Below, one piece after another: positions 1,746-58,688 of a stretch of DNA of 64,000 bases. This DNA is from Phytophthora colocasiae (Eukaryota > Oomycota > Peronosporomycetes > Peronosporales > Peronosporaceae): contig JAGKQI010000099.1 in NCBI GenBank assembly GCA_018806915.1, positions 1,364,001-1,428,000 of the forward strand. The letters are read 5' to 3'. How positions within the stretch are numbered: the stretch's first letter is position 1; each line of letters opens with the position of its first letter. The notes under the pieces are model-generated. The model was not told the DNA's origin. It did no database searches and saw nothing but the letters and a program-made list of their open reading frames with translations. A program made the translations under genes and the position numbers.

Positions 1746-1770
1746 ATGGCTTCATCCTTCTCGATGTACG

Positions 1771-27430: not shown

Positions 27431-27450
27431 ACTTACAGGCTGGGGGCGGA

Positions 27451-30498: not shown

Positions 30499-30593
30499 CT
30501 ACCGCCGCCTCTCCAATGACTTGCGAAAGTCTTTGGAGAGCTTCCCACTCTGTGTCTGACAGGTGGGCACAGTCCGTGCGCGTCACGGACATG
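30499..30593 (-). pseudogene. Element B gag, first ~31 codons (separated by element C)
   Basis: ATG at 30593 opens MSVTRTDCAHLSDTEWEAL and continues to the C insertion point; the frame resumes at 17639 with MLRTLSPTEQHG. The start is supported by its place next to the LTR and by similarity to the other group II gags, which begin with a short segment and then HL[TS][PD]S ([18 protein letters not shown]). Confidence 0.78.
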
Positions 30594-30606
30594 TGTGGGG
30601 TCCCAG

Positions 30607-30917
30607 CGTAACGGGGTAAGAGGTACCGTCACTAGCGTACACTGTAGATAAGAGGAAGCTCGTAATAATAAGCTTAAGTCTTGTCTTTAGGGTAAAATCA
30701 ACTCTGTTTATGTATGGGACGGGGCCGGAGGGCCCCCTTGCCCTTGTGAACCACTCAAATCTAAGTCTGTACATGATTGGATGAAATGGGTCTGGATCCC
30801 CACTTTCAACCAATCAGAACATGACAGCAGGTCACACGCTAGCCGTGTGACTGCACCTACTTTTGTATATGTATCTATGTAGCTTTTACCTACTTATGTA
30901 AATGGCCCTTTACATCA
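30607..30917 (-). repeat. Group II LTR shared by elements G (3') and B (5')
   Basis: The ~311-bp LTR starts CGTAACGGGG on the plus strand (elsewhere TGTAACGGGG) and ends ACATCA. To its right the minus strand has a polypurine tract GAGAGGAGGG, as expected before the 3' LTR of G. To its left lies the start of B gag, as expected after a 5' LTR, with TGGGACCCC as possible primer site. G and B therefore form a tandem RT-IN-LTR-gag-PR arrangement with one LTR. Confidence 0.65.
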
Positions 30918-31036
30918 CCCTCCTCTCTAAGTTGCGCTTAAGTAACCTAAGCGCGGACACGGAACTCTCGAGAACACACTCTTCAAAAACGGCGACAGGT
31001 TCGACGACAACACTTGGCAGCGAGCGCCGAGCGACG

Positions 31037-32483
31037 ATGGCGATGACGAACTCAAGTGACAGAGACGGCGGGCGGCCGACGCTGAACCCGGTGCCGACGC
31101 TCGTGTCGGCACTACACGCGATGGACCACGAACTCAAGCCCTGGGAACTCTACAGCCTTCAAGGAGCAGAAGAACCTGAATCACTCGACTCGATGAAGCA
31201 GTACTTCACACGGTACCGCGCAGCGAAGAACAAGGGTACCAGCCACGCCTACTCGCACGACGCTCACCAGCGTTCGTGGTGCGCCTTTATTCGTCGTTGG
31301 AACGCGAATCGACGCGAAGGGCGTCCGTTCGCGTCGTGGCTCGGAGCACGGGAGGAGCATCGAGGCGAACGCTCCATTGCGGACCTTCGAGAGCGCATCT
31401 GCAGCTTGGCAGAGCGCGAGTGGCGCCTCTGCTACGTTCATCGGGTCGAAGGCTGCGAGAACTGCGAAACGACTCGCGATCGGCCGACGCGGGACGAATG
31501 GGAGAACCAGGTGCGAACCTGGCCTCTTTCGGAAGACGAGCGGCGCTGGATCGGACGCTACGAGCGTTCGCGCTCGGAGCTGGAGCAAGCGCGCCTACGT
31601 CGTGGACGTGAGCGCTCTTGAAGCCGTAATCGTCATGACAGTCGCGGCCGAAGTCGCCGTGACCCTTCGCCGAAGTTTCATCGCAGCCGCAGTCGTGATC
31701 GAGGACGGCCTTCGGCTGGGGAACGCGGCTCTCCATCACGTCGTCGTTCGCCTTCGCCAGCGCGAGTGTGGACTCATACTCGCGCACAACATTCGGGATA
31801 TCCTGCAGCAGGCGACTACGCGGCTCCCACGTATCCTCCGCTGGCGAATATCCCAGCCAGCGGACGCGATAGTGCTTCTCAGGGGTACGCGCGTGGCTTC
31901 TCAGCATCTTCGACGACGCGGTCCTGTCGCGAGGAACTTCCTCGCGACTCCGGCGGACATCATACGATACGCTCGGCAATCTAGCGCCGGTCTCCAGCCG
32001 CGTCAATCAGCGGGGGTGGACCATTGCGACGGTAGGGCGGAACATTGGGGCGCGACCCTTCGACTCGAACAGTCGCCGGTTTCGTCAGCCTTGTCAACTC
32101 AGCAGCTACCTGCGCGCTCGGATCCTGCTGCGTCTGTGCAGCGGGTGACGATTGAGCAGTACCGGTTAATGATGGCCGAGGCGGAGCAGGCCCGGAACGA
32201 TGCGCTGGACGCGCAGAATCTTGCGGAGAGCGCTCGCACTCAAGCGAGCGCGGCCGAGGTAGCGGCCGAAGTGTCTCAGCGTGATCGTCGCGCGCTGGTG
32301 GAACGCCTCCGTCGACTGGAGAGGGCTGCGTTCGGGGCACCGCAGGCGGAACAGTCTGCGCGTGAGCGGCAGGGGCTTGGGCCAAGCCGGCGTCAGCGTC
32401 GGCGTCATGGAAGGTCGGACTACGAGCCCGCCCGCGGCGCTGCGGATGGGAGTCGGGGACAACAGCAGGAAGATACGGCTTGA
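31037..32483 (+). pseudogene. Antisense ORF of element G: N-terminal domain, RS-rich segment, coiled coil
   Basis: ATG 31037 opens MAMTNSSDRDGG. An N-terminal region of ~190 residues is rich in Trp, Arg and Glu (FIRRWNANRREGRPFASWLG; a CxxC pair in GCENCET). TGA at 31619 interrupts what reads as a continuous Arg-Ser stretch: RRGRERS before it, SRNRHDSRGRSRRDPSP and SRRRSPSPARV after it, in the same frame to TAG 31981. A CGA to TGA change explains it. A further shift near 31980 leads to a coiled coil (MMAEAEQARNDALDAQNLAE, ALVERLRRLERAAFG) and a basic tail to 32483. The gene overlaps the chromodomain part of pol on the other strand. I recognise no family. The part at 31037-31290 has no pol opposite, so it cannot be only a shadow of pol. 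Confidence 0.5.
31287..32006 (-). pseudogene. Element G pol C-terminal extension with chromodomain (frameshifted from pol)
   Basis: The frame next to the main pol ORF encodes KHYRVRWLGYSPAEDTWEPR (31877-31818) and then LLQDIPNVVREYE, a normal chromodomain core with the aromatic and Trp-Glu positions kept. The main pol ORF ends at 31981, a little before it, after PPPLIDAAGDRR, so a 1-base shift around 31950-31990 separates the two. The downstream residues to 31287 are low-complexity and overlap the antisense ORF; their coding status is doubtful. Confidence 0.6.
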
Positions 32484-35400
32484 GGCGCCCGACGTAGAAC
32501 GTCGGGTGGAGACGCATAGCAGTAGCTATGTCTAGCGTGTAGGCGTCCCCCAGCACTTTAATAACCTTGAATGGACCGATATATCTTGGCGCCAGCTTAT
32601 TCGCGCCAAGGTTCGTAATTGCTGTCGCTTGGATTCCGGTGGTCGACAGCAGGACTCGGTCACCCTTGTGGAAAACGCTCGTGTTCTTCCGGCCTCGCTG
32701 GTCTGCGTATTCTTTCTGCTTGTCTATCGCAGACTGCAGCGCATCACGCACGAATCTCGTGATGGCTTGACGACGTAACATGAACTCCGATACCGCTGCG
32801 GAGTCGATCGGCGAAGCAACTTCGCGTGGGGCGAAGTTGGCCGCTGGTGACCCGGCAGGGTCAAATGCGGGCGTAGTGTCAGTTGATCTTCTAGCCTTCG
32901 AGCGCGTCCGGGATGCAATTCCGCATGCGGCAACCGTTGACGTAACCGGTAATTCCGCGCCCACCGGTACTGCTACCGGTGGAACCGACGCCACAGTGGT
33001 GTTGCGATTCCCTCGCGCCTCGGCTTCACTCGACACTAGTGCCGGGCGGGTCGGCACTGCATCCATTTCTCCCCCACCAAGAGTGAAGCGTGCGGAGTCG
33101 GGAGAAGTCCCTAATGCGAGCGTTGTTGATGAAAACGGCGTCAAACCTGTCGACGCATGGACTGCGTTGTTGATAGCGAAGTCGGCGAGCGGCAGGAACG
33201 TACTCCACGACGGGAACGACGTGGCATAGCTTCGAAGGACGTCCTCAACGACTCGGTTGGCGCGCTCCGTTTGCCCATCCGTTTCAGGATGAGCTGCCGT
33301 CGACATCAACAAGCGCGTACCAAGTAGTTCGAACAATCGATCCCAGAAGGTCGATGTAAAGCGAGGGTCGCGGTCAGAGACGATGGATTCCGGCAGGCCA
33401 TGATGCCGGAATACGAGGTCGAGGAACAGGGACGCCGTCGTTTCAGCTGTCACTTGGGCCTCGACTGGAGCAAGACGGACCATCTTGCTAAAGCGATCGA
33501 CGATGACAATGGCGCGCGTGCGACCCTGGTCGTCCGATGGAAGGCCGAAGACGAAATCCATGCTAACGGATCGCCACGCTTCCGTGGCGATAGGCAACGG
33601 GCGCAGCGGAGCTTGCGATGATGGGGCTGGCTTGACACGCTGGCAAGTCTCGCAAGTCCGAACCCATTTGCGAATCCACTTGTACATCCTAGGCCAATAG
33701 AAGTCCCTCGAAATCGCCGCGAATGTCTTCTCGCGGCCCAAGTGGCCGCCCACAGGAGCGTCATGATATTCATGGACGAGACGAGCACGAAGGTCGTCAT
33801 CGGCAGGGATGACGACGCGCGGAGGATCGAAGGCGTCCATTGTATATGTCAACAATGGGCCATCGAGTTGGTATCGCTCGATGTGACTGGGCATAGGGCG
33901 TGTCAGCTGCTTCGATGTCTTCGCACTCGGAGTACGGAGGTGCGCGATGATGTTGGCGTAGAACAGATCGTGCTCGTACGCGTCAGCAATCTGCTGACGC
34001 AGGGCCAGGACTGGAGAAGTGGTCGTCGCGTTGATACCCAGAGCTACGCAACATGCACAGCTTTCATCTTCGTCATCGTCGTCAGCAAGTTGCTGACCGA
34101 CTTGTCGCCGTGGGTCGTAGTCTGGGCGGCGGGACAGCGCGTCGGCAAGGATGTTGTTCTTGCCGGGTTTGTAGTGCACCACGAAGTTGTATTCAGAGAA
34201 GAACGAGAGCCATCGCGCCATGCGCTGGGACAGGTGGGGAGTCTTCATCGCGGTGCGCAGCGACGCGTGGTCTGTATACACGGCAAACGTCTGTTCTCCG
34301 AGCAAATACACCCGGAATTTGATCAGGGCGTAGCGCATAGCGAGGAGTTCCTTGTCGTGGACGGGGTAATTCTTCTCGGCGGGCTTCATTTGTCGTGACT
34401 GGAAGCTCACGACGCGCTCGTGGCCCTCATCGTCGAACTGCATCAGCGCACAGACGATTGCGAAGTCGCTCGCGTCGCACACGACATGGAACGGTTTCGT
34501 GTGATCCGGAAGCATCAGGATCGGCGCCTCCGCCAAGCTCTTCTTCACGGAATCAAACGCAGCTTGGTGGTCGAGGGACCACAGCCACGTCGCGTCCTTT
34601 TTCAGCAGTGAAGACAGTGGTTGGATCAGCCCGGCGTAGTTCTTCGTGTACTTGTGGAGATAGTTCGCCAGACCCAACCACTGACGCAGCTCCGTGGGGT
34701 TCTTGGGAGTCGGCCAAGAACACATCGAGGTGACCTTCTCCGGATCTGCGCGGACGCCGTCCTTGCTCACGTGACAGCCGAGTACGGGAATCTCCGGCGC
34801 ACAGAAGATGCACTTCTTCAAACTCGCGTACAGCTTGTTCTCGCGCATCACTTGGAATACCTGCCTCAAGTGTCGAAGGTGAACCTCGAGAGCGCTGAGG
34901 TTGCCCTCAGCGCGGCTGTGCACGAAGATGTCGTCGAAGTAGCTCGGCGCAAAGTTGCGGAGCGGGCGCAGTACGTAAGACACCATGCGGTTGAACGTGG
35001 CGGGGGCGTTCTTCAGACCCTGTGGCATCACGAGCCACTCCCAAAGCAATCCGCTGGGGGTGCTTACTGCCGTGAGGGGTATGTCACTGGACCTCATCAA
35101 GATCTGGTAGAAGCCATCCGTCAGGTCGATGGCGCTATAGATGACGCTACCTGACATGGAGTCGAGGACCATGTCCTTCCGCGGGATCGGGGTCTGCGCC
35201 GGGATGGTAGCGTCGTTCAGCTTATTGAACGCGTGGACGATGCGCCAGCCGCCAGTCGCCTTCTTCACACAGAACGTGGGGCTAGAGTGTGGGAAGGTGC
35301 TCTCGCGGACGTGACCGGCCAGGCGGCGTTTTTCGAAGAACTCGTCGATGGCCTTGACCTGGTCTCGCGGCAGTGGCCACTGCCGCGTCACGCAGTACTT

Positions 35401-35667
35401 CGTCCCGGGCGCGAGGTCAATCTCGTGCCGAACTCCGCGGTCGGCCGGAAGCTCGGCGGGGATCTCATCCGGGAACACGTCTTCAAACTCGCGCGCGGTG
35501 TCGTAGACTGGGTTACCCGACTCCTTCAGCGCCTCCCAGGACTGTGCTGCGAATCGTTCTTCGCGGGCAGACTTTGGTTCAGCATTCCTCGGTCGCGACG
35601 ACGCGTCGTCACTGATGAGTGCGTGAAGGCCCTCGACTGTCGCGCTGGCCTCGATGACCAAGCACAC
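31981..35667 (-). CDS. Element G pol: RT, RNase H, integrase (1,228 codons, uninterrupted)
   Basis: This is the longest open frame in the window. RT has RHEIDLAPGTKYCVTRQWPL, GGWRIVHAFNKLNDATIP and SAIDLTDGFYQILM, with active site SYFDDIFVHSR (YFDD). RNase H has VVCDASDFAI, HDKELLAMRYAL, YTDHASLRTAM and NILADALSRRPDY, so Asp-Glu-Asp-Asp are present. Integrase has a zinc finger (HEYHDAPVGGHLGREKT ... CETCQRVKP) and a triad with Asp in SMDFVFGLP, Asp in VSDRDPRFT and Glu in DGQTERANR. The C-terminal part contains the GPF motif (LAPRYIGPFKVIKVLG) and a long Pro/Ala-rich tail. There is no stop in 3.7 kb, unlike all other copies, so G pol is the youngest or best preserved. The protease and gag that would precede it are replaced by element H. 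Confidence 0.93.
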   Translation of the reverse strand: MCLVIEASATVEGLHALISDDASSRPRNAEPKSAREERFAAQSWEALKESGNPVYDTAREFEDVFPDEIPAELPADRGVRHEIDLAPGTKYCVTRQWPLPRDQVKAIDEFFEKRRLAGHVRESTFPHSSPTFCVKKATGGWRIVHAFNKLNDATIPAQTPIPRKDMVLDSMSGSVIYSAIDLTDGFYQILMRSSDIPLTAVSTPSGLLWEWLVMPQGLKNAPATFNRMVSYVLRPLRNFAPSYFDDIFVHSRAEGNLSALEVHLRHLRQVFQVMRENKLYASLKKCIFCAPEIPVLGCHVSKDGVRADPEKVTSMCSWPTPKNPTELRQWLGLANYLHKYTKNYAGLIQPLSSLLKKDATWLWSLDHQAAFDSVKKSLAEAPILMLPDHTKPFHVVCDASDFAIVCALMQFDDEGHERVVSFQSRQMKPAEKNYPVHDKELLAMRYALIKFRVYLLGEQTFAVYTDHASLRTAMKTPHLSQRMARWLSFFSEYNFVVHYKPGKNNILADALSRRPDYDPRRQVGQQLADDDDEDESCACCVALGINATTTSPVLALRQQIADAYEHDLFYANIIAHLRTPSAKTSKQLTRPMPSHIERYQLDGPLLTYTMDAFDPPRVVIPADDDLRARLVHEYHDAPVGGHLGREKTFAAISRDFYWPRMYKWIRKWVRTCETCQRVKPAPSSQAPLRPLPIATEAWRSVSMDFVFGLPSDDQGRTRAIVIVDRFSKMVRLAPVEAQVTAETTASLFLDLVFRHHGLPESIVSDRDPRFTSTFWDRLFELLGTRLLMSTAAHPETDGQTERANRVVEDVLRSYATSFPSWSTFLPLADFAINNAVHASTGLTPFSSTTLALGTSPDSARFTLGGGEMDAVPTRPALVSSEAEARGNRNTTVASVPPVAVPVGAELPVTSTVAACGIASRTRSKARRSTDTTPAFDPAGSPAANFAPREVASPIDSAAVSEFMLRRQAITRFVRDALQSAIDKQKEYADQRGRKNTSVFHKGDRVLLSTTGIQATAITNLGANKLAPRYIGPFKVIKVLGDAYTLDIATAMRLHPTFYVGRLKPYLPAVVPDSHPQRRGRARSPTFHDADADAGLAQAPAAHAQTVPPAVPRTQPSPVDGGVPPARDDHAETLRPLPRPRSLECERSPQDSARPAHRSGPAPPRPSLTGTAQSSPAAQTQQDPSAQVAAELTRLTKPATVRVEGSRPNVPPYRRNGPPPLIDAAGDRR

Positions 35668-35841
35668 TTGCTCGATGTCACCGCTTGAGATCGCGAAGGA
35701 AGTGTTTCCAGGAGAGGCCGGGGAGCCGCGTTATCCCGCAAGCGTCGCGAGGGGGACTCGCGCCTTCGATGACCCGCGTGCCCCGTGGAGCACCCTCCAC
35801 GTATTCGACAGCGCAGACAGATTCTTTCTGTGGAGGTGCGG

Positions 35842-36255
35842 TGTAACGGGGTTACACGGCGCTGTGCGCTATGGCTTCAGTGGTGTGGCAGACACCGGCC
35901 GTAGGCACAAGTCGCAGATCTGTATGCATGACACACCGTGTATCTCACACGTCACATATGTAGCCATTGGTTGGTAGTTAGCTCAGAGCCACACATTACA
36001 TTTGACCAGGATTTACTATGCTAGATACTAAATCCGTTACATTTAGGATTAGGGCAATAAAGACAATAAAAATCAGTTTGCATTTTACATAATTAGTGTT
36101 AGTCCTTTTATTTTAGGGACACTAATAGTGTTAGTCCCGTATTAAGTGGACTACTTGGTTCTTGTATAGAACCGAAGGCTAGTGCCTTGCAAACAGGACT
36201 CTACGAGTCAACTAAACTTCCTCTATGCGGTGCACACCTACGCAGCCCCGCTGCA
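35842..36255 (+). repeat. 5' LTR of element H, followed by primer binding site
   Basis: The 414-bp block begins TGTAACGGGG and ends CCCCGCTGCA. A 2-nt spacer (TC) and TGGTAGAACTCG follow, the candidate primer binding site at 36258-36269. F has the same layout on the minus strand: CA, 2 nt, TGGTAGCACTTG. The LTR is A/T-rich in its middle (36000-36130), unlike the coding part. Confidence 0.75.
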
Positions 36256-36312
36256 TCTGGTAGAACTCGTAGTCAATCCAACGCCTGAGTTGAAGACTGT
36301 TTCTCTGTGAGA

Positions 36313-37273
36313 ATGAAGCCAGAAGCATACGCTCACTTGACTCCGAGTCAGCAGGTCACGCTTAACAAGCTTACGTCCTTGCTGGGCCCTGAAGGTATGG
36401 CGCACCTTGCGTCTCAAGGGCCGGAGGCCGTCAACACGCGCCTGGAGGCATTTGCCTCGTACGAGAACGCTCTCGTCGAGCACATTCAGCGGGATGTAAA
36501 AGGGGCTACCCTTCCTCCGAGAGTTAAGCCCGTCACGCTCAGCGTGAAGACCTTCCACGGGAAGGAGGGGAAGAATCTCCTGTTGTGGACCCGAGAGATC
36601 GAAATGGCCATGGGGGCCGCCATGCTCCAGTTGGAGGGGCAACGCGTGGCGTTTGCCATCTCCTAGCTCGAAGGACGAGCACGAGAATGGGCCTTGACGT
36701 CTGGGACGTCGGTGGAAGCGGCCTTCCCCACATGGGGCGAGCTAAAGGCCAAGCTCACGCAAGTGTTTGCTCCAGGCATATCGCGTGCGGTCACGCTTCC
36801 TTGCTTGTCGCCAGGGCAAGAAGGATCTGGTGGACCATGTCCAAGAGCTGCGCACGCTCATTGCTGGCATGGCTGCCGACCCTCTACCTGAGGTGGTCAC
36901 CGTGACCGTCTTCATGGAAGGGCTGCGGGCTGGCGTGGCCAGGACGGAGGCATTCCGTCAGAACCCTCGTAATTTCGAGGACGCTGTCAGCGTGGCATTG
37001 AATGCCGAACACAACCTTAAGTTGTCGAGAGTTGGTGCTAACAGCACAGGGTCCAGCGGACCCGAACCCATGGATCTCAGCTATGCTGAAGACGAAGTAG
37101 CCGAGCTACGAGCTGCGGTGCATCGTATGAGCACCCGGTGCTGCACGTGTGGTAGTCCCACACATCTGAGGCCCAACTGTCCTCTGCGCAAAGAGCGCGC
37201 CGGCCATAATGATCACAATCCTGCCGCGGGTCCCGCTTTGGGCTCTGCCCAGAGAAACGCCGGCTCCCAGTAG
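36313..37273 (+). pseudogene. Element H gag (one stop, one frameshift, intact zinc knuckle)
   Basis: ATG 36313 opens [20 protein letters not shown]. The capsid-like core ([20 protein letters not shown]) runs to TAG 36664-36666 in FAIS*LEGRAREWA. A shift near 36770-36790 moves to the frame of RSRFLACRQGKKDLVDHVQE and VTVFMEGLRAGVART. The nucleocapsid has EPMDLSYA and the knuckle CCTCGSPTHLRPNC, a full CX2CX4HX4C. Gag ends CAG TAG at 37271-37273 within a perfect 9-bp hairpin. The same capsid motifs occur in F and B gag. Confidence 0.83.
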
Positions 37274-37293
37274 ACGCGGGGCGGTCTACTGGG
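37266..37293 (+). promoter_or_regulatory. Hairpin enclosing the gag stop of element H
   Basis: CCCAGTAGA (37266-37274) pairs perfectly with TCTACTGGG (37285-37293) around a G+C-rich 10-nt loop. The gag stop TAG lies in the 5' arm. The -1 frame is open across the hairpin (PVDAGRSTGEELSSAV) and continues without a stop into the protease ORF. The matching hairpins in F and B have different arm sequences with pairing kept. Confidence 0.65.
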
Positions 37294-39276
37294 GAAGAAC
37301 TGAGTTCTGCAGTGCGTGAGAGGCACTGGGGCTCAGCCCCGAAGAGCTCCGTGCTCTTGAACACGGAAAGTGTGAGCAAGCAGGGCTTGCTGGTCGTCCA
37401 GGTGGACGTGAAGGGCTTCGATAAGCCGTGGATCGTGTTGATCGATTCGGGGGCATCTGGCAACTATGCCAGACGCTCCACCGTTGAGGGTAGTCAGCAG
37501 TATGCTGAGGCGCTTCGAGCGCGAAGAGGTGACACCGTCACTGTCCGTCTAGCGACGGGCGTCCGTGTCACGGTGGCCAAGGTCCCCATGGACCTGCGGC
37601 TGAAGTTCTTGGACTTCGACAGCGTGGAGCGCTGCTTGGTCCTGGACCTGGATTCGAGGTACGACCTCATCCTTGGTATGGCGTGGCTGGAGCGCCACGA
37701 GCCATGGATTGATTGGAGGTCGAAGCCCTTAGGTGCTACGCACTTCTCTCCTAGTGGAGCTTTGGCGAGTCATGAACCCACCTCTGCTAGGAAGCAGAAG
37801 CGCTATTGGCGCGAGCATCAAGCCGAATCGGCTATGATGCTAGAAGTCGGTGTGTCCGAGTTTGTGGACAGCACCGTGTGCAAGGACCGCGGTCCTGTTG
37901 AGCGCATAGCTCTGGTTGACAGTGAGTCAACGTGTGGGCAAAGCTCATGTAGACCCTGTGGGGCGGCACGTACTCCGCCGAGTGATACTTGTCGTGGACC
38001 AAGTCGATCACTGAGTGTCTCTGACACTGGACCTGTTACGGTCACTGATTGTGCAGCGGCACGTACTCCGCTGAGCGACGTCGGTCGTCGACCGAGTAAA
38101 TCGCTGAGTGGCACTGACACTGGGCCCGAAGAGGTCAAAACCTGTGCGACGGCACGTACTCCGTCGAATGGACGTTCGTCGGCTAGACGGCGACGTCGTA
38201 AGGCCCTATGGGCAAGACGCTCTGCGTCCGAGTCGTCCGTGACGTCAAGTGTCAAAGCACAGGAAGGCTGTGGGCAGCTATACACTCTGGTCGATGGAGT
38301 GGACGGCAGTGCCGAAGGCAGCGTCCGTCTGGACAGATTACCGAGTGTCGACAAACTCCTTGAGTTAGAAGAGATGTCGCTTGCCGACTTTGGCAATGCC
38401 TTAAAGGCTGGCGAACTCGCCGAGGTGGTCATTGTTCGACCCGAAGAAGAGTTAAACTCATCGTCCGTCGTGGACGAGTCTGTATTGACCAGGGTCAAGA
38501 AGGCGTTGAACGCCAGAAGCGGATCGGAGATCCTCAAGAACCCTTCGGACCCCTTCTACTCCTTGTTGAAGGAATACGGAGATGTTGTCTCGAAAGAGCC
38601 ACCAAGTGGCCTGCCTCCAGACCGAGGCGTGCGTCATGAGATCGACCTAGTTCCCGGAACTAAATACTGCGTAACCCGACAGTGGCCTCTTCCCAAAGAG
38701 CAATGCGACGTCATTGACGCCTTCTTCCGTGCGAAGCACGCTGCGGGTCTTGTGCGCGAGAGCAAGTCTCCGCACTCCGCACCCACGTTCTGTGTCAGAA
38801 AGTCGAATGGCAAGTGGCGTATCGTTCACGCTTCCAATAAGCTCAACGCTGCCACGATTCCGGCGCAGACGCCGATTCCTAGGAAGGATGTTCTTCAGAA
38901 CAACATGGTGGGTTGTACCATGTACAGTGCGCTCGACTTAGTCGACGGCTACTATCAGCTGCTCATGCGAGCCAGTGATATCCCGCTTACAGCGGTGAGC
39001 ACCCCGAGCGGTATGCTCTGGGAGTGGCTCGTAATGCCCCAAGGGCTCTCGAACGCACCTGCCACGTTCAATCGTCTAGTGACGCAACTGTTCCGCCCTC
39101 TGCGAGCATTCGCACAGACGTACTTCGACGACGTGTTCGTCCATAGTCAAGCCGAACACGGCAAGACTGACGTCGAGGTGCACGTGGAACACGTGAGAGC
39201 TGTGCTCGAGTGCACGAACAAGTTGTACGCCAACGCAGACAAGTGCGTCTTTGGCGCGGAAGAAATCCCTTTCTAG
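37274..39276 (+). pseudogene. Element H pol, protease, repetitive linker and RT part (ends by a 1-base deletion)
   Basis: In the -1 frame relative to gag the ORF is open from the gag stop to 39276. The protease has IDSGASGNYARRS, VRLATGVRVTV and YDLILGMAWLERHEPWIDW. The linker includes three 31-residue tandem repeats (37950-38230) whose DNA forms co-varying hairpins. RT has RHEIDLVPGTKYCVTRQWPL, KWRIVHASNKLNAATIP, SALDLVDGYYQLLM and active site TYFDDVFVHSQ. The frame stops at EEIPF-TAG, where one C appears deleted (TTCTAG for TTCCTAG). The downstream frame continues the RT thumb (LGCFIGKHGLRADPAKI). Apart from this base the protease and RT look functional. Confidence 0.87.
37950..38230 (+). 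repeat. Three 93-bp tandem repeats in element H linker, with co-varying hairpins
   Basis: The units encode 31 residues each (ARTPxSD..R.PS.SLS..DTGP pattern). The loop CACGTACT recurs at 37967, 38060 and 38153, exactly 93 bp apart. Its arms are GGCGG/CCGCC, CAGCGG/CCGCTG and CGACGG/CCGTCG, different in each unit yet complementary in each. A second pair also co-varies: AGTGAT/ATCACT in unit 1 and AGCGA/TCGCT in unit 2. So does an inner pair: ACTTG/CAAGT against TCGGT/ACCGA. Encoded residues change at the arms, so the pairing is kept rather than the protein. Confidence 0.85.
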
Positions 39277-39960
39277 GGTGCTTCATCGGGAAGCATGGCC
39301 TTCGTGCTGATCCAGCAAAGATCAAGGCCATTGTGGACTGGCCGGTTCCCTTGAACCAGAAGGACTTGCGTAAGTGGCTTGGCTTGGCCAACTACTTGCA
39401 CAAGTACAGCGAGAACTACGCTGAGTTGGCTCGGCCACTGACGGATCTCCTTAAGAAGGATGCCGAATGGGTGTGGCGTGCTGAGCACGAGATGGCGTTC
39501 ACTCGCATCAAGGATAGCCTGCTTCAGGCACCGATATTGGCGTTGCCAGACCCCGATCGTCCGTTCATCGTCGTCTGTGACGCCTCGAACTTTGCCATCG
39601 GCAGTGCTTTGCTACTAGCAGACGTCGAAGTGCGCGAACGCGTTATTGCGTTTGAGTCTCGACAGCTCAAGGCTGCTGAGAAGAACTATCCAGTTCATGA
39701 CAAAGAGCTACTTGCGATGAAGTACGCTCTCGTCAAATTCAGGGTTCACCTGCTCGGCTCCAAGCCGTTTGTGATCTACACGGATCATGCGTCACTACGC
39801 ACAGCGACGCAGTCGCCTCACCTCTCGCAGAGGATGGCCCGATGGCTCTCCTTCTTCGCTGAGTACAACTTCGAGGTGAAGTACAAGCCTGGCAGGCAGA
39901 ACGTCCTCGCTGACGCTTATCGCGTCGCCCGGACTATGAGTTATCTCATGTCACCTCGGT
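39277..39960 (+). pseudogene. Element H pol, RT thumb and RNase H (1-base deletion near 39920)
   Basis: Motifs are LRKWLGLANYLHKYSENYAE, VVCDASNFAIGSALL, HDKELLAMKYALVKF, YTDHASLRTATQSPH and KYKPGRQNVLADA, so Asp-Glu-Asp-Asp of RNase H are all there. The frame breaks just after LADA: one T is missing relative to the ALSRRPDYEL reading, and the next frame begins at 39921. Group II has only this one RNase H, in contrast to the double arrangement of A, C and D. Confidence 0.83.
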
Positions 39961-41905
39961 GACGTCGTCCGTGACGGACATGGTTCGAGCAGCGTACGCT
40001 CAGGACGACTCTTGTGTCGCGCTGCTTCAAGCTCTAGGGAGCGATGAGTTCAAGGACTTAAAGGTGACTCTGTCACGACGCCTAAAGGCGAGACTCCAGC
40101 GCTATAGCCTGGAAGGCGGTCTGCTGTACTACAGCACGGGTCAGGATGACCCACCACGTGTGGTGGTTCCTCACGATGAGGACCTGAAGTATCGTATCCT
40201 CTATGAGGCCCACAACACGCCCACAAGCGGCCACCTTGGTCGCGAGAAGACCTACGGCCCCGTGAGCTCCATGTACTGGTGGCCGAAGCTGTACAAGTGG
40301 GTTAGCACATACGTGCACACGTGCGAGACGTGTCAGCGGGTTAAACCCTCGCCGCATGCGGCGGCGCCGTTGGCGAGTTTGCCTGTACCATCTGGGTGTT
40401 GGCAGTCGATCAGCATGGACTTTGTGTCTGGCCTGCCAAAGGATACGGCAGGCAACACGGGCGTTGTGGTCTTTGTTGACCGTCTGAGCAAGATGGCTCA
40501 CTTAGCGGCTGTACCGGACACCGTGGATGGCGCTGGTACAGCGACGATCTTTATCGATCGGGTCTTCCGCCAGCTGGGCTGCCAGAGACCATTGTCTCGG
40601 ACCGAGACCCCCGTTTCACGGTTCACTTCTGGACGTCCGTCTTTAAGGTGCTTGGCACTCAACTGGACATGTCCACGGCGGATCATCCGCAGACCGACGG
40701 TCAAACGGAGCGCGTTAATCGCGTCCTGGAGGACATCCTCCGCAGCATATGCGCTGAAACGCCGAAGCGTTGGAGCGCTATGCTTCCTCTCGTTGAGTTC
40801 TCGATGAACATTGCGGTGCATGCCTCGACAGGCTTCACCCCGTTCTACGTGAACGGACTTGCGCATCCGCGCGTACCGCTCACTCCGCCACGTGGTGGCC
40901 TCGGGCTTAGTGGGGGAGGGACTGTGCCGTCGCTCGATTCTGAGCTTGCTGATATCAGCCCTCTGGCAGTCGTAAACAAGTCGATGACTTCCTCTCGGTG
41001 AGACTGAGCGTATTACGCCGTGTGTGTGACGCGATGGCTGAAAGCCAGGACGTTCAAAAGGAACAAGCGGATGCAAAAGAAAGAGGCAATGTGTGGGAAT
41101 TCAAGGTCGGGGACCAAGTTTTATTAAACGCTAAGAACCTACCTACACATGCAGTGTCGGCCGTCTTCAAGACGAAGTGCGCCCGCGCTTCATCGGACCG
41201 TTCACGGTCGTGGCCAAGAAGGGCCTGGCATACACTCTTGATTTGCCAAAGCGGATGCGAACACATCCTGTGTTCTACGTCGGCTTGCTCAAGCCATATC
41301 GGGACCCCGCGGCGGTGAACGCGGAGGCGCTGGCGCCGACGTCACGCGCCCAGACTGCGCCATCTGCAGCATCATCGTCACGTGACCTCGTAGCTCAGCG
41401 AGCTGCAGCTCCTGCTGATGCAGACGAGCAGTCAGAGACTGTGGCCCTTCAAGCCAAGCCATCCGGCTTTCGATCTCCTCCATGTCATGAGCGAGACGGG
41501 CATGCGAATGCCAAACGCTCTCCATGTTCTCTTGAAGAGACCGAGTCTGACTCTGGAGAGTCTCGACTGAGCGATCATGCTGATACCAGCCGTTCCGTGA
41601 CAGATAACGCTCATCACACTCATCGAGTATCGCGTAGCGCAACGAGTCGACCTCCTCCGCCGTTGCTCGACGGGCAGGGGACTCCCCATTACCACGTGGA
41701 GCGCCTGATGGCGCGTCGTCGCCACCGTGGTCAAAACCAGTATCTGGTGAAGTGGCGTGGGTATCCTCATTCCCAAAACTCATGGGAGTTCGAGGGCCCC
41801 CTGAGGCAGGACTGCCCTGACGTCGTGGACGCTTTTGTTCGCGACGATGGGCGCCCGAAGGGCTCGAAGTCGACCACTCGGTCGACTCCCGCTTCTCACC
41901 ACTAG
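39921..41905 (+). pseudogene. Element H pol, integrase and chromodomain (several frameshifts)
   Basis: The zinc finger (YEAHNTPTSGHLGREKT ... CETCQRVKP) and first catalytic Asp (SMDFVSGLP) are in the frame to ~40580. A shift near 40583 hides the second Asp (the other frame reads RDPRFT-like residues), and the Glu is in the frame from 40648 (DGQTERVNR). More shifts near 40985-41000 and 41175 lead to the GPF block (MRPRFIGPFTVVAKKGLAY) and the chromodomain (HYHVERLMARRRHRGQ, QYLVKWRGYPHSQNSWEF) ending at 41905. The last 600 bases overlap the antisense ORF. This integrase is dead as written, but the damage is only small indels. Confidence 0.8.
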
Positions 41906-43167
41906 TGTGAGAAGCTGACGGACTAGCAGCTGAGCTCAAGCTCTGGTCCGTGGCTGGCACAGCCAGTGAGTCTCCTCCGGAGACTGAAGGAGCGCCCTGC
42001 GAAGCAGGAATAGTGGTCTGGGAAGCAGGAGCCACTGCCGTCGTATGACGAGGAAAGCGGCCGGGCCGCATGCGTAACTTCGCGTATTGGAAGAGCAGTC
42101 CTCGAGCGAGGCGGGCGTCCACCTCGGAGCAGCTCTCCCAGAGCCGATCGAACGACGACAGCTTACGTGAAGCCTCGGCCCAAGTAGCCACATGGACCAG
42201 GTAGTCCCTAGTCGTCTCTCCGGTTTGGAGAAGGAGTGGATACGTCCTCATCTGAGGCACAGACTCCCGTCGCCGTTGCTTTTCCAAGCACTGTCGATAC
42301 TCGACGAGTGTGCATACCTGCGGGGTCAGGAACCGCTCATGGAGCCCTTGTCGTTGCTGGGTCTCAGCCACCGTGCGTGGGGCAGCGCCTATGGCATACC
42401 CGCGAAGGTTTGGCTGTGCCATTAACTGCTTCACCTGCTCAGCAGGATCCCGAGGCTCAAAGCCGTAGTCGCGTCGCGACGAAGTACCCACGATGTCCCG
42501 AGGGACCGGACGCTGGGACTCTTGAGCGCTGCTCATCGAGGCCTCCTGCGCCTCATCCAGAGGGTTGGTGATCTTTGACACCTCCGAGCGGCTCAGGCTC
42601 ATCGCGAGCAGGAAGTGGTGGCGCATTGCGCAGTGCGTTGAGCACGAGGCTCGAGGGTCCCTCCGGGAACGGATTCGGAGTGTGCAGCTGCCGGGGAATG
42701 TTGTAGCGACGCGGGTCGCGTGGAGAGCTTCGCTCATACCCCTGGGTCGTCCGTGTACTCTCAGGAGCAGGAGGTTGAGGGGCATCGCCCTGTTCGGACT
42801 CCTCATAGTCCACTTCGATCTCACCCTTCTCCGTAGGAGAGCGACGTGTGTCGCGCGTCGGTGACGCTGTCTGGTACTCAAATGGCGAGCCACCGCTACC
42901 ACTGCTGGTCGGGCTGCCCTTGAACATCGCTCCGTAGCGAAGGCGAGACGCCGTGAAATACTCCGCGATGGAGAGCGTAGAGCGAGCCAGAGGATCAGGC
43001 GAGGAAGCGCAGAGGCGCTGAGGCGGAGAGGCCGGAGGTCGGGACACCCGAGGAGCGGTGGGCTCGCTGGGGCGAATGGGAGAATGTGCTCGTTGAGCCA
43101 GCGCGCACGCGCACTCTCGTTGAGAGATTTCTTTTATCAGAAATTTGCTGTTGACAGGCCTTGACAA
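41289..43167 (-). pseudogene. Antisense ORF of element H: Pro-rich N part, central domain, coiled coil (frameshifted)
   Basis: The minus strand is open 43167-42553 and, in another frame, 42902-41289; joining near 42580 gives about 600 residues. The N part is Ser/Pro/Arg-rich with an acidic patch (EKGEIEVDYEESEQGD) and a motif PRRYNIPRQLHTPNPFP. The middle (EYRQCLEKQRRRESVPQMRT, LVHVATWAEASRKLSSFDRL) looks folded. An Arg/Ser/Gly-rich linker follows, then a coiled coil (SLQENMESVWHSHARLAHDM, LHQQELQLAELRGHVTMMLQ) and a Pro/Arg tail. The 1.0 kb from 41906 to 42902 has no pol opposite, so the ORF there is not a shadow of pol. It starts next to the 3' LTR, as in A, D and G. I recognise no family and see no clear sequence match to the G or A/D antisense proteins. 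Confidence 0.5.
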
Positions 43168-43222
43168 GGCGGTTATGCCGGCAGTTGTAGATACTGCGTA
43201 TCCACAGTTTGGTGGGGGAGGG

Positions 43223-43383
43223 TGTAACGGGGTTACTGTAACGGGGCGGTGCTCTGTGGTAAATGAAACCCTGTCTATTCAATCTGTGTGGCGCCCGGGT
43301 CGGGCGCCGTGAACCAACAAAACACAAGCTAATCTAATTGGTCGCCGTGGTGCACGGCGACCGTGTGACGGAAGCCCGTCACA
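43223..43383. repeat. Short group II LTR between two opposite polypurine tracts
   Basis: The ~161-bp block begins TGTAACGGGG and ends CCCGTCACA. On its left is GGTGGGGGAGGG on the plus strand (43211-43222). On its right is GGTGGGGGGTGG on the minus strand (43384-43395). It therefore fits as 3' LTR of H (plus) and of F (minus). It matches neither the H 5' LTR nor the F 5' LTR well. Confidence 0.55.
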
Positions 43384-45173
43384 CCACCCCCCACCTTAGA
43401 AAGAAGCCTGAAGAGCTTCTCAATCTTCAATTTTCTGCACGATGAAATTGTACTCAGAGAAGAGCGACAACCAGCGCGCCATGCGCTGGGACAAGTGGGG
43501 GCTCTTCGTCGCTGTCCTCAGCGACGCGTGATCTGTGTAGATTGCGAAGGTCTTCTCATCGAGGAGATACACACGGAACTTGATGAGTGCGTAGCGCATG
43601 GCAAGCAGCTCTTTATCATGGATCGGATAATTCCGTTTCGCCTGCTTTAGTTGGCGCGACTGGTAACTCACCACTCGCTCGCGACCCTCGTCGTCAAACT
43701 GCATCAAGGCACAGCCGATCGCGAAGTCGCTCGCGTCGCACACAACGTGGAACGGCTTTGAGTGATCTAGAAGCATCAAGACGGGCGGTTGACAAACTCG
43801 TCTTCACCGCGTCGAAGGCTGTTTGGTGCTCGGGGCGCCATGACCACATGGCGTCTGCCTTCAGGAGTTGAGACACCGGTTGGATCGTCAGCGCGAAGTT
43901 CTTCGAGTAATGGTGGAGATACGTCGCGAGCCCCAACCACTGACGGAGCTGCTTCTGGTCCTGAGGCACGGGCCAAGCGCAGATGGCTTCAATCTTCTCG
44001 GGGTCAGCACGGACACCTTCCCTGCTGACGTAGCTCCCGAGTACTGGGATCTCGGGAGCGCAGAAGATACACTTCTTCAAGTTGGCGTACAGCTTGTTCC
44101 CTCGCATCACTTCGAACACCTGCGGCAGGTGTTGCAGATGCACCTCGACGTCCGTCAAGCCCCGTTCAGCACGGCTGTGGATGAAAATGCCATCAAAGTA
44201 GCTGGGCGCGAAGTCCCGGTACGGGCGGAGCAAGTTAGACACCATGAGGTTGAAGGTTGCAGGGGCGTTCTTGAGCCCCTGTGGCATCACAAGCCATTCC
44301 CAAAGCATTCCACTGGGCGTGCTGACCGCGGTCAGCGGTACGTCATCCTCCCGCATCAAGATCTGATAGAAGCCGTCCATCAGATCGATCGCACTGTATT
44401 TGGTACTCACCGACATGGTGTCGAGCACCATGTCTTTCCGCGGGATCGGCGTCTGCCCCGGGATGGTGGCATCGTTGAGCTTGTTGAAGGCGTGGACGAT
44501 CCGCCATCCACCGGTTGCTTTCTTCACGCAGAACGTCGGACTGGAGTGCGGGGACAGACTCTCACGACGTGGCCGGCTTGCCGGCGACCCTCGAAGAAGG
44601 CGTCGATTGCTTCGACTTGATCAAGGGGAAGCGGCCATTTCCTCGTCACGCAGTATTTTGCACCAGGCACGAGGTCGATCTCGTGCCGAACTCCACGGTC
44701 CGGTGGAAGGACGGCTGGCACCTTGTCAGGGAAGATGTCGATGAACTCGCGAACCAGCGGAGCAACCGGGTTACCAGCGGCTTCGAGTGCTGGTAACGAC
44801 TGGGCCAAGTAGCGAGCCTCGCGAGCGGACTTAGGCTCAGCGCCTTTCGGGCGTTCCCGGGTATTGGCGCTGGGTCACCAGCATCTACATCGACAGCCGC
44901 GATCGTCGCGGTGTTGTCCGCGACGATCATGCAAACCTGCTCGATCTCACCATGTTTCAAGTCGCGGAGAAAGTGTTTCCAAGACAGGCCAGGCAACTTG
45001 GTGATCTCAGACGCATCGCACGGCGGGCGTGCGACCTCGACATTGTGCATTCGCGGGATCGATGCCGCGTCATCCCCCATCAGAACGGAGATAACCTCGG
45101 AGTCAGACGCGTCTGACTCATTCGGAGGAGCGCGGGGTCGCCGGGGCTGGCGGCGACCGCGGCGACGTGTGAA
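43384..45173 (-). mobile_element. Ty3/gypsy element F (group II), left fragment with RT and RNase H
   Basis: Minus-strand pol from the protease-RT linker (at 45173) to a truncated RNase H (43430). Integrase, chromodomain and any antisense ORF are missing; the RNase H runs into non-coding sequence and the LTR at 43383. The other half of F (protease, gag, 5' LTR) lies at 58662-60810, on the far side of element D. Confidence 0.75.
43420..45173 (-). pseudogene. Element F pol: linker, RT (YFDG active site), truncated RNase H
   Basis: The linker (LPGLSWKHFLRDLKHGEIEQ) runs to ~44870, where a shift moves to the frame of SLPALEAAGNPVAPLVREFI and RHEIDLVPGAKYCVTRKWPL. Another shift near 44560 leads to KKATGGWRIVHAFNKLNDAT and SAIDLMDGFYQILM. 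The active site is SYFDGIFIHSR: the second Asp of YxDD is Gly, so polymerisation should be lost even if frames were intact. RNase H (VVCDASDFAIGCALM, HDKELLAMRYALIKF, YTDHASLRTATKSPH) is in a further frame from ~43780. It stops after EYNFIV, before the last catalytic Asp. At least three shifts mark it as dead. Confidence 0.84.
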
Positions 45174-46661
45174 TATGGTGAAGCGCGAATAAGAAATCCG
45201 AGAAAAGGCAACGTCAGGCCCAGAGAGAGTCGGATCAAGCGACAGGGGCCTCTGGCGTGGCAAGATACCGGTTGATGACCCCAGGTTGCGCGAATGACGG
45301 CTGACAAATGGACCCGGATCGGTAATCGCCTTGATCTCTCCGCAAGTGGATGATGGATGGCGTCTTGGTCGAGTGAAACTAAGCGATCAGAGAGCCCCGC
45401 CGTAAGGCCTCACGTAGTGGCTCAGCACCGGGGAGAAGGAGACCAAAGCAGCGGCAGATCAGGACAGGCACGATCTGCTGTGGATCGACGACGACCTGAT
45501 CGTGAGATGCCGCCGAAGAAGGGGGCCGATCCGATATCCTACGATCAGTGGAGATTGCACAAGACCAGTGACGTGACACACCGTGTTAAGCCGGAGGAGA
45601 TGCGAAGAATACCCAAGGAAGCAGTCATGTAGAGGTCACCCCAAGAGGTGATTTCTGGTTCGGACAATGGTGGCAGCATCGGTCGCACGGGGGAGCGATG
45701 CTCAAGTACAGGGAGATCGCGATCTTAAATATCGGAGACGCGGAGATACGAGATCAAGTAAGAAGATTGCCGATCAGGATCATTGTTCAAGCTGGCCGAT
45801 CAAGGCTACGGTCAGGACTACTATTCAGAGCAGCTGATCACGACTACCAATCGAGATCGAGATCGAGATCGAGATCGATGATCGAGATCGATGACCGAGA
45901 TCGGTGATCGAGATCGCGATCAAGGGTTAGGTGAGATCGAGATCGAAGATCGGAAGAGCAGTTGCGTAGCCGGATGTCAGGTGATCGTAGGATAGCAGAT
46001 GAGGATGGGACTAGTAGACGTAGGAATAACCATAAACAGAATCGAATTTGCTCTGGACATCACAAGTGCCTTCGTTCAAGACCGGAACTGGGAATTACAT
46101 TGGCCCCCCGGCATCAAGAAGGTAAGGAGAAGAGATCTAGCATAGAGGTTAATTCTGGATAATACATTGGCCAGTTTTACCCTATCTAGTGATCTATCCT
46201 TTACGTGCAAACTACGGATCGGAAGGAATTAGCTGCTTGGCCTGACGATCCCGTCGACTCTCGACCCATCAAGACCCCCGCTATAGGAAGCGGCAAGCAT
46301 CGTAAAGGAAGGGATCAGATTCCCAACATTGGACCTTTGGAAGACCTGGATCGAAAACCAGGCGACCGGATCAAGGCTCGAGGACTCGCCTACGACCCGG
46401 ATCAACCCCTCCGAGGTAGAGTAAAGTATTCCCACGCTATCTCACCACCCCTGCGTCACCCAAGACATTCTTCTCGTCCCAAGACATCTTCAGAAGTCAC
46501 CTGGAAGAGCGTAACCCGCCTACCGACGGGTACACAAGGTGAACACTACACGCAGCAAGATCACGGATCATCGGGGGACCCCCTCCGTTAGTCGGTGTCT
46601 GGGCGCAAGTGGCGATCGCGATCGGCCTCAACCAGATTTTGGCCAGATCCGCTCCACCACA
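45174..46661 (+). repeat. 5' LTR of element D
   Basis: 1,488 bp, from TATGGTGAAGCG to CTCCACCACA, abutting gag ATG 46662. It contains a GAGATC hexamer run at about 45850-45900 and a very high density of GATC around 45710-45960. Confidence 0.93.
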
Positions 46662-48988
46662 ATGGTGCGCGTGCCTGGATCTTCTGGTGACTTCGGATAT
46701 CACCGTGAGTCCCAAGAAGATGTCAAGATTAAAGAAGAACAAGGGGAAGAAGTGCCTACGAATGTTGGATCGACGAAGGCACTGAAAACGGAAAGATCCA
46801 CAGATCAGCAGAGTTCTGGGAGAATCTCTACTGACAGGCACGAGGCAGACCTGGATCGCAATCCAGATCTCGAAGAAAAACCTCGAATTCCTCCCAAGGC
46901 CCCTTCGAGGGCCACCGCGGATCTCGATGAGAATCGAGATCCGCACACGAGCGATAAGGAATCAGCAAAGCTGAAACCTAATCTGCTCACCAAGTCCACT
47001 GTTGCCTCAAGATCGACCAAGAAAAAGAAGATCAAGAGCACCCGGACGAAATTGAAAGCTCCAGACTCAGAGCCAGAAGATATGATCAGCCCAGGATCGA
47101 CGATCACCAAGGACGCGATCGAGCAGGCCTATTACAGGAAGATGCTAAGTGAGACCTTGCTTAACGATCCCGTTCTTACGATCATACAAGTCCGCCAGAT
47201 CGGTAACCTCACCGGCCCGGTGTCGAAGCCCCGAACTAGCTCGGACCGCCTGAACGCGGTGAAGATTCTACTTGATCTACTCAAGAAGCTGGTTTAGTGG
47301 CTGGAGAGTTCGACCCAAATTCTCTATTTGACCTGGAACTGGAGGCGATTCAATCCGCGACTTATGATCTATTTGATTCTCTCAAAATCTTGGTCGGCGA
47401 ACGCCCACCGACGCCCGATCCAGGCTATCAGACCGGATCGTCATGCTACGCGTCAGCGACCTCGGAACCAGACTCCGATAGTCCGAGAAGGCTGCGACGC
47501 ATGTCGTTAGGCCCCTCCGGCGCCAGATTCCTGAAATCGCGTATGAAGAAACAAGATACGCGATCGGTGGCTACGAAACTGGAGATCAAGACGCCCGATC
47601 AGCAAGAAAATCGCCGGATCCGGACAGACCAAACCGCGCCGACAACTAATTCCACTGGATCAAGCAACAAGTTGGACGACTACATCCAAATGGCGATGGA
47701 TCGTTTCTTAAAAGAACGGAGTCTCGCGACACTCCGATCGCCGATCAAAGGGGAGTTGGATGTTGATATGGAGTCCGTTACCGCCTCAGATCCCGATGCA
47801 TGGGAATACGATCCGGACGATCTGGGCATACCGAGTTCCGGTGGACAGATGGCAAGCCGAGCAGCGGTCGCATCCGCGGCGATCGGTCAAGGAGGATCGT
47901 CGATGATCCAGCGGGTCCGGATCTCAGCGATGTCGGATCTCAAAGAGTTTGCGGGTAAAGATCTGGACGAAGATCGCGCTCGGGCTTGGATCGGTAAGGT
48001 CAAGTCAGCGTTCCAACGTGATCAGGCTATGGAAGAAGGGAAATGCCTCACGTTTGCTGATCTGATGGTGTGACCGGCAAAGAACTGGTACAGGCAGCTC
48101 AGTCGAACGACGAAAACCAAGTGGGCGGATCTGTTGGACAGTTTCCAGACCCAGTATTGTGGGTTGGGTATGTCGGTCGCGTGGCAATACTATCACGCTC
48201 GCAAACGATCGGAAGAGACTCCTCTCGATTATCTCTACCGGCTCAACGTGGCGGCTTTACGTGCTAGACTGAAGATCAAAGATGGGAGCCCTAAGGCCCG
48301 CCGGGAACATGTAGACCACTACATCGAGACATTGGGAGATCCGGAGTTAGCTGATCGGCTGACCCTACTCCGACTGAGTGACGTCGATGAACTGGAGGAG
48401 GTACTTCGTGCCCGGGAACGGGCGAAAAGCAGACAGCGTAAATCTGCGTTCGGATCGAAGTACAGACAAAAGGCACCGGCCAGTGCCCCGGCGGCACCCA
48501 CCCGGGCGGTGGTACGGGCGATCCAAACCCAAGATCCGAGCTCGGAATCAGAGGAAATATCCGGATCGAACGGATCCGATTCTGAAGGCGATCTCCGGAG
48601 AATATATCTTGCCGCGTCGGAAGACAAGCAGATCGGTACTGGGGGCGTTCCCCACCAACAGGATCAGTCGCGATCGCAGGTGAACGCGCAAGATCGAGGC
48701 CGGATCGCGGATCGCAGGGGCACATCAGATCACGATCGAGGTCGCTGTTCACACTGTGGATCGCGGAAGCATACGGATCTAGACTGCTGGAGACGTCTAA
48801 CCTGTGATAAGTGCGGGAAGAGGGGTCACCCAACGGATCGCTGTCTGTATACCTGCCGTGGTTGTGGGGAGATCCATGAAGCTGGAGAATGCCCTATGGA
48901 AGAATTCTACAACCAGATCCGCAAGTGGTACGACCCGACCCGACATGCCGGATTGTTCCCCGAGAAGGTGGAAAAGATGTTAAACTAG
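46662..48988 (+). pseudogene. Element D gag with three zinc knuckles (frameshift and one stop)
   Basis: ATG 46662 directly follows the LTR (MVRVPGSSGD). A 1-base deletion near 47284 (CTCAAGAAG for CTCCAAGAGG in C) ends the first frame at 47297. The second frame runs from 47297 to TGA 48071-48073, where C has GGG, and then on in frame to TAG 48986-48988. Core motifs include DLKEFAGKDLDEDRARAWI, NWYRQLSRTTKTKWADL and AWQYYHARKRSEETPLDYL. The knuckles CSHCGSRKHTDLDC, CDKCGKRGHPTDRC and CRGCGEIHEAGEC keep all ligands. It is close to C throughout, yet each copy has its own lesions. Confidence 0.87.
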
Positions 48989-49028
48989 GACGCTCGCCGG
49001 TTTGGAAACCGGTACGAGCCGAGCGTTC
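48979..49028 (+). promoter_or_regulatory. -1 frameshift cassette of element D
   Basis: GTTAAAC (48979-48985), TAG (48986-48988), outer stem GGACGCTCG (48988-48996) with CGAGCGTTC (49020-49028, one G-U pair), and inner hairpin CCGGTT/AACCGG (48997-49012, loop TGGA). The -1 frame reads CTA GGA CGC into pol. This is the most perfect of the three copies. Confidence 0.8.
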
Positions 49029-58661: not shown

Positions 58662-58688
58662 CTACTTCTCGTACGCCTGGCGATGCCA

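Follow-up and report, generated by a model that had tools for sequence, protein, structure and literature searches.

Why should the protein-coding DNA of one set of retrotransposons be packed with short perfect hairpins, when the elements inserted into and around it show none in excess? This question is raised by a 64,000-nucleotide stretch of the Phytophthora colocasiae genome (contig JAGKQI010000099.1, positions 1,364,001 to 1,428,000; hereafter the window), which consists of nested Ty3-type long terminal repeat (LTR) elements in a genome of 92.5 Mb whose Ty3 content is eukaryotic. Within it, a second set of elements (B, F, G, H and J) is surrounded or interrupted by Group I elements and by element A. 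The new data indicate that the hairpin density of this set is real, that protein sequence and codon usage do not account for it, and that the trait marks one branch of Ty3 reverse transcriptases (RTs), spanning coding DNA as well as LTRs and falling to near chance outside. The parts of the window compared are:

B, 15780..17640, minus strand: gag-protease portion of an M-family Ty3 element, cut at 17640 by a Group I insertion.
Group I Ty3 insertion, 17640..30502, plus strand: control, with hairpins at chance.
F, 30502..36312, minus strand: part of a Ty3 element, with a single open pol frame (31981-35667, 1228 amino acids).
G, 36313..41300, plus strand: gag, protease (PR), RT, RNase H (RH) and integrase (INT), with many perfect stems of 5-6 bp and no excess at 7 bp or more.
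3' half of H, 41300..43280, minus strand: stems of at least 7 bp at 3 against 1.9, no enrichment.
H, 43280..45172, minus strand: RT-RNase H portion of a K-family element that a Group I insertion interrupts.
Group I Ty3 insertion between H and J, 45173..58661, plus strand: control at chance level, with LTRs of 1489 bp that are 99.2% identical.
J, 58665..61210, minus strand: part carrying gag and protease; its order and strand suggest that it and H are halves of one element, J being the upstream one.
LTRs of element A, 1771-2760 and 14784-15772: 990 bp, 99% identical.

An earlier note on this DNA had claimed that the second set is dense in stems of at least 7 bp and had quoted eight of them, all of which are present (17335-17352, 17486-17508, 17526-17546, 17586-17608, 33387-33412, 34892-34913, 59235-59257 and 60291-60314). 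The standard count used here takes perfect stems of at least 7 bp with loops of 3-12 nucleotides and compares them with the mean of 20 dinucleotide shuffles. By this measure, B holds 35 stems against 0.9 in shuffled sequence, F 34 against 4.5, H 20 against 2.5 and J 16 against 1.7, corresponding to 13.3, 5.7, 5.2 and 6.3 stems per kb; B, with stems of 7-10 bp, is the densest part of the window. The Group I insertions (10 against 7.2 and 7 against 8.3), element A (9 against 4.8) and the host margins (left 5 against 3.4, right 3 against 1.5), by contrast, have together with G 0.5-1.2 stems per kb. Codon-preserving shuffles (11 open reading frames (ORFs), 100 shuffles each, stems of at least 7 bp) give 23 stems against 3.0 (shuffle maximum 7) in F, 16 against 1.2 (5) in B, 6 against 0.9 (4) in H and 5 against 0.7 (4) in J, whereas two G ORFs (3 against 1.8, 0 against 0.3), two Group I ORFs (0 against 1.2, 1 against 1.8) and three A ORFs (2 against 0.7, 1 against 0.8, 0 against 0.9) stay low. 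A second shuffle that also keeps the context at codon junctions raises the expectation only to 3.5 (maximum 9) for F, 2.8 (6) for B and 1.6 (4) for H, with 0.6 (3) for J. The claim thus withstands for F, B, H and J the codon shuffle that had been proposed as its refutation, and the statement that Group I elements and host margins lack an excess is borne out by both kinds of shuffle.

It fails, at the length given, for the very interval to which it had been attached, G, where stems of at least 7 bp number 6 against 3.6. Here the excess lies in shorter stems: 36 against 10.8 at 6 bp or more, 124 against 30.9 at exactly 5 bp and 32 against 9 at exactly 6 bp. With loops of 0-8 nucleotides, stems of at least 5 bp reach 29 against 6.8 in gag, 42 against 9.8 in the PR-linker part, 44 against 10.8 in RT-RH and 30 against 9.7 in INT, so that all four parts stand at 3.1-4.3 times the shuffled mean and exceed the maximum of 200 shuffles. 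Codon shuffles at 6 bp or more likewise leave the larger G ORF above its controls (16 against 5.2, maximum 12); the smaller has 2 against 1.7.

Several features identify these as Ty3/gypsy LTR retrotransposons, namely the RT-RNase H-integrase order in Pfam, a Ty3-like pol and the LTRs of M-family copies. The pol of F carries RT, RNase H, integrase and an SH3_Tf2-1 domain, and its best match among solved structures is Ty3-G Gag-Pol (PDB 7q5b, E 6.9e-112), with which the elements share the order gag, protease, RT, RNase H, integrase. F has four copies of 2.4-3.6 kb each at 97.3% nucleotide identity, and H has kin at L026-L028 and L032 (the K family). Of 16 loci of 10 kb sampled first, comprising both flanks of the window and 14 further sites, L005 and L007 alone are hairpin-rich, and both carry relatives of F and B. 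From them come copies of a related family, M, namely M1 (L017 and L007), M2 (L005 and L018) and, by extension, M3 (L019); B, M1 and M3 belong to one family, and a 93% copy of B lies at L007:1115-2998. M3 is inserted within G2, a copy of G present in pieces in L019 (91-96%), and is therefore younger than G2. For the G family, 24 pol matches at 89-100% identity, among them that of the window, span almost the entire query, and further ones are fragmentary.

The pol of M1 has 59 perfect stems of at least 7 bp over 3.2 kb, and that of M2 has 51. The M LTR (470 bp in M3) shares the trait: M3 has 9 stems where 0.4 are expected and M1 has 7 where 0.5 are expected. One hairpin of the window can be read as a piece of an LTR shared with M3:

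Hairpin, 35841..35857, strand not assigned: GTGTAAC-ggg-GTTACAC, the same in the M3 LTR (L019:1502).

Four adjoining stretches outside M elements give 1 against 4.1, 6 against 3.2, 10 against 6.6 and 9 against 3.8 expected, the last exceeding its shuffle maximum (7 in 40 shuffles). An insert of 696 bp (L007:3548-4243) has 4 stems against 0.56. A tree of RT-RNase H with 15 rows, in which hairpin-rich means more than 3 times expectation at stems of at least 7 bp or more than 2 times at 5 bp or more, splits the eight hairpin-rich rows (F, an F copy, K1, K2, H, G, M3 and Mb) from the seven others with 100/100 support; the tool warned of long branches meeting, and the root serves for drawing only. 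The seven other rows, Ty3 elements of the same genome, are without the hairpins, the highest values among them being 2.2 (A) and 2.0 (L013). A scan of viral contigs found no relatives, and tblastn against plasmids returned distant RTs only, in three records.

Some further observations concern individual copies. The LTRs of M1 and M2 are each apparently split by different insertions at almost the same site (L007:3548-4243 and L018:3383-7690), and M3 (L019:4875-6080) is without six residues that F, G and H have between NKLNDAT and IPRKD. The RT active site of H (43784-44566) reads YFDG; this copy of H looks inactive, because YFDG replaces the YFDD found in F, G and M3.

Stem length is specific to each family, at 5-6 bp in G, 7-9 bp in F and K and 7-11 bp in M. 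Specifically, the maximal stems of M1 comprise 34 of 7 bp, 25 of 8, 35 of 9, 24 of 10, 10 of 11 and one each of 12 and 13 (expected 3.2, 0.4 and 0.2, then 0.0), so that M stems peak at 9 bp and almost end at 11; three loci of the same family (L029-L031) have no stem at 12, and 13 bp is the longest among the elements for which spectra were made. The corresponding spectrum of G has 122 stems of 5 bp (42.6 expected), 51 of 6 (10.4) and 13 of 7 (3.4), none of 8 or 9 and one of 10, while F, its copies and the K family (L026-L028) lie between G and M, mainly at 7-9 bp. Pairing ends abruptly, the Watson-Crick fraction beyond stem ends being 0.11-0.42.

The stems are accommodated within conserved protein, and protein identity inside them is close to that outside. 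Amino acid identity to F, inside and outside stems, is 0.51/0.56 and 0.64/0.73 for M1, 0.54/0.59 and 0.65/0.62 for M2, 0.83/0.74 for H and 0.57/0.57 for G. Counting greedily the non-overlapping slots attainable by synonymous change (for M3, the RT-RH-INT stretch without stops), M3 realises 28 of 54 slots at 7 bp and 17 of 32 at 9 bp, compared with 11/50 and 3/30 in F and with none of 53 and none of 22 in Group I. The codon register of the arms gives a weak and mixed signal: 3-3 is rarest in M3 (8/45), with 11/13/9 in F, 4/4/4 in H and 12/14/17 in M1.

What kind of pairing has been enriched? RNA viruses with genome-scale ordered RNA structure have folding energies below those of shuffled controls, and RNA folding, if selected, tolerates G.U, so that an excess of G.U over A.C would be expected on the coding strand. 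The stems prove to be Watson-Crick only, and the antisense strand folds about as strongly as the sense strand. Across B, F, G, H and J, perfect 6-bp windows occur at 7.8 times expectation, against 1.5 for windows with one G.T and 1.5 with one A.C; at 7 bp the values are 15, 2.1 and 2.3. In M1, 8-bp windows hold 79 A.C and 34 G.T. Hairpins with one mismatch (G.T/A.C) number 10/9 in M3, beside 112 perfect ones, 8/15 in M1, 2/2 in B, 0/0 in F, 1/0 in H and J together and 0/0 in G; the G value says little because the count needs 8 pairs and G stems have 5-6, so the 6- and 7-bp windows apply instead. Stem changes between copies comprise 23 to G.T, 22 to A.C, 32 others, 4 compensatory and 45 gaps (eight directional comparisons, which are not independent). 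Folding energies relative to dinucleotide shuffles, as sense/antisense z, are -5.3/-6.1 for M3, -2.7/-3.3 for J, -2.1/-2.1 for G, -1.2/-0.9 for F and -1.1/-1.8 for H, against -0.35/-0.7 for Group I and -0.25/0.02 for A.

Comparisons between copies show how long stems last: they persist at divergences of up to 3%, survive in part at 10-22% and bear essentially no relation to one another from 28% upwards. At 97-99% identity, six comparisons within the F family give stem changes at 0.33, 0.41, 0.54, 0.71, 0.00 and 1.14 of the neutral expectation and five within the M family give 0.36-0.58; loops in these larger family sets change at 0.25-2.4 of the outside rate and are not consistently raised. 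The depletion is less clear in the first four copy pairs, where stems change at 0.7-0.9 of the outside rate (both directions summed, neutral being 1) and loops at 1.5-2.2 times it; for G and G2 the stem ratio is mixed (gag about 0.7, PR about 0.6, linker 1.3). Counted by codon position in both directions, M1 and M3 differ at 23 of 2488 stem sites and 139 of 4962 outside. L026 and L028, each compared with L027, exceed the neutral expectation (1.62 and 1.69), which would follow if new stems were arising as well. Between L026 and L027, at 10% divergence, the retained share of Watson-Crick pairs is 0.94 and 0.88 (control pairs 0.83 and 0.84), and double changes are compensatory in 5/7 and 5/5 cases against 0.38 in controls, although this is a single comparison whose two directions probably share events. 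L032, 19-22% away, keeps 0.80-0.86 of pairs against 0.63-0.69, with no compensatory excess, and broken pairs over six K-family comparisons (L026, L027, L032) comprise 22 G.T and 35 A.C. One hairpin illustrates paired change, from A-T to G-C inside and from G-C to A-T at its end:

Hairpin, 33793..33816, minus strand: kept in F, L026 and L027, imperfect in L032.

Between families, pairing is near control (0.39-0.60 against 0.42-0.58 in 11 comparisons, the top excess being L027 to F at 0.60 against 0.50), and 0-2 hairpins are fully shared in 11 of 12 comparisons, against 7/45 in the twelfth (G in M3). Stems thus persist for a time before others take their place at different positions. Of 40 stem clusters examined in B, M1, M2 and M3, 20 occur in all four and 20 vary; gaps in M2 and M3 explain why many of the variable ones are missing, and those remaining differ mainly by 1-2 bases.

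The available data are compatible with a model in which one arm of a near-palindrome rewrites the other during element replication, a process filtered by protein selection, and we give this model about an even chance of being right. While the element is single-stranded during replication, most simply in reverse transcription or as cDNA, short inverted repeats would fold, and one arm could template the other, so that near-complementary arms would be rewritten to perfect Watson-Crick stems up to a family-typical length, some 6 bp for G, 9 bp for F and the K family and 11 bp for M. Point mutation would break stems, purifying selection on gag-pol would reject rewrites that damage protein, and the hairpin load would settle where the protein code limits it. 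The model is favoured because the stems are Watson-Crick only, have sharp ends and a family-specific length, occur in non-coding LTRs, and are kept in the short term but turned over in the long term; arm copying also predicts a length limit set by the machinery, presence in coding and non-coding DNA alike and limits near the element ends, all of which are seen. It also draws on the restriction of the trait to a single RT branch, on the similar protein identity inside and outside stems, on the share of attainable slots realised in M3, on the persistence of stems within families, on the mainly compensatory double changes between L026 and L027, and on arm homogenisation by template switching described in other systems (PMC8604942, PMC3820800, PMC8794818). 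We infer that templated copying is the agent, that it operates as part of the reverse-transcription cycle and that the enzyme itself sets how long stems can become. Of the two causes offered in the earlier note, a mutation process that perfects near-palindromes is accordingly the preferred one; its more specific suggestion, template switching by RT, is an inferred agent, the inverted loops and excess of one-arm changes that would trace it directly having been looked for and not found.

Several results weigh against arm copying. Multi-base events on a single arm, and perhaps inverted loops, should accompany it, and both were looked for: no one-arm multi-base event was caught in the B/M1/M2/M3 and cross-family comparisons, 0 of 44 changed loops are inverted, and stem-completing changes fall on both arms at binomial chance, with no one-arm excess, a test of low power at 28-37% divergence. 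The comparisons available for such events are mostly too close or too distant. Furthermore, most one-mismatch M stems are common to M1, M2 and M3 (22/23 in M1, 18/20 in M3) and have therefore not been corrected, and stem conservation at 2-3% divergence fits selection equally well. Simulations on random coding sequences lend no help, as copying and selection runs both ended without stems well above chance; copying had been set far below the point-mutation rate, so the exercise tells nothing.

Which other explanations could account for these results? Selection acting on both strands for generic local self-complementarity, in sense and antisense RNA or in RNA and cDNA, for instance because this impedes the formation of double-stranded RNA, protects against targeting by small RNAs or gives the cDNA a certain shape, is rather unlikely overall but has real points in its favour. 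Specifically, it would penalise G.U and A.C alike, which explains the equal wobble counts and the similar folding of both strands, and it fits the depressed stem substitution in the M family and the compensatory changes at 10% divergence. Against it stand the lack of a known agent here that would want 5-6 bp in one family and 9-11 in another, the absence of G.T or A.C one-mismatch intermediates from F, and the near-complete loss of pairing between families. Selection for a folded sense genomic RNA, the other cause named in the earlier note, draws on the greater stability of the hairpin-rich elements over their shuffles; it was rejected as the main cause on the relation of G.U to A.C (A.C at least equals G.T on the sense strand, and the two decay products within stems are about equally frequent), on the similar stability of the antisense strand and on the failure of helices to persist between families, and it is now largely refuted and very unlikely.

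A process of the host acting on integrated copies independently of the element cycle, such as cruciform repair or template switching in replication, is improbable: arm homogenisation is known for host polymerases, as the excerpted text of PMC8604942 describes, with PMC7202029 a further paper listed on the subject, yet Group I elements inserted inside hairpin-rich ones, host margins and other Ty3 lineages are at or near chance, and the 14 other 10-kb loci show no host DNA or unrelated elements of comparable hairpin density. Hairpin modules that were mobile or repeated and inserted many times, as palindromic repeat elements are, could explain why a few adjacent hairpins of B resemble each other (15798, 15867, 15929), but are scarcely credible given that the commonest left-arm 5-mer occurs in 6 of 112 M3 hairpins, that no consensus common to many hairpins was found and that few gaps are needed to align the RT proteins of F, H, G and M3. 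Returning to arm copying, a bolder version of it, advanced tentatively and with somewhat less than an even chance, would have stem length serve as a molecular ruler for the enzyme concerned (near 6 bp for G, 9 bp for F and K, 11 bp for M), such that an RT clade or replication complex drives whole elements towards hairpin saturation, with protein selection alone limiting the load and the structure being a mutational by-product and not an adaptation.

How does this compare with known systems? In the excerpted text of PMC6649704, nematomorph mitochondrial genes contain perfect coding palindromes, for which template switching is discussed as one possible mechanism beside stochastic emergence. The present stems are similar in being perfect inverted repeats within protein genes whose two arms both encode conserved protein. 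They differ in residing in Ty3 elements of a nuclear-type genome with large contigs and in measuring mostly 5-11 bp, against mitochondrial arms of up to 142 bp, as well as in their density along the element, their family-specific length and their extension into LTRs. A second parallel is quasipalindrome correction. Judging from excerpts of the respective papers, template switching in yeast homogenises the arms of inverted repeats in coding DNA (PMC8604942), loss of RNase H2 in yeast is associated with such mutations (PMC3820800), and RNA hairpins have been proposed to arise and be maintained through template switching in DNA replication (PMC8794818). These systems likewise turn imperfect inverted repeats into perfect ones through multi-base changes in coding DNA, and the perfect Watson-Crick arms, short spacers and lack of wobble preference seen here agree with them; they, however, concern DNA replication of host genomes, whereas the present trait saturates one retroelement clade and shows no spacer inversion. 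With genome-scale ordered RNA structure the elements share low folding energy, but not tolerance of G.U, a sense-strand bias or conserved helices. Among the matches listed in the open-licence literature, no such hairpin-saturated retroelement clade is reported.

Selection for RNA folding is the usual interpretation when a genome shows dense, stable structure; the tests of wobble, strand and turnover applied here distinguish pairing from folding and favour a copying bias. If true, this would mean that a reverse transcriptase has a measurable error mode whose length limit is built in, and would provide a natural system for studying how perfect stems originate and how much structure a coding sequence can absorb.

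Two minor observations concern the edges of the window. Element A has plus-strand ORFs at 2712-5854, opposite to its pol on the minus strand; the single one scanned (2712-3725) has no Pfam match, and the words GGATCC and GGATC look abundant by eye in this plus-strand ORF part of A (1700-6500). The right margin (61210-64000), finally, contains seven palindromic perfect stems of exactly 7 bp with loops of 0-2 nucleotides, against 0.0 expected.

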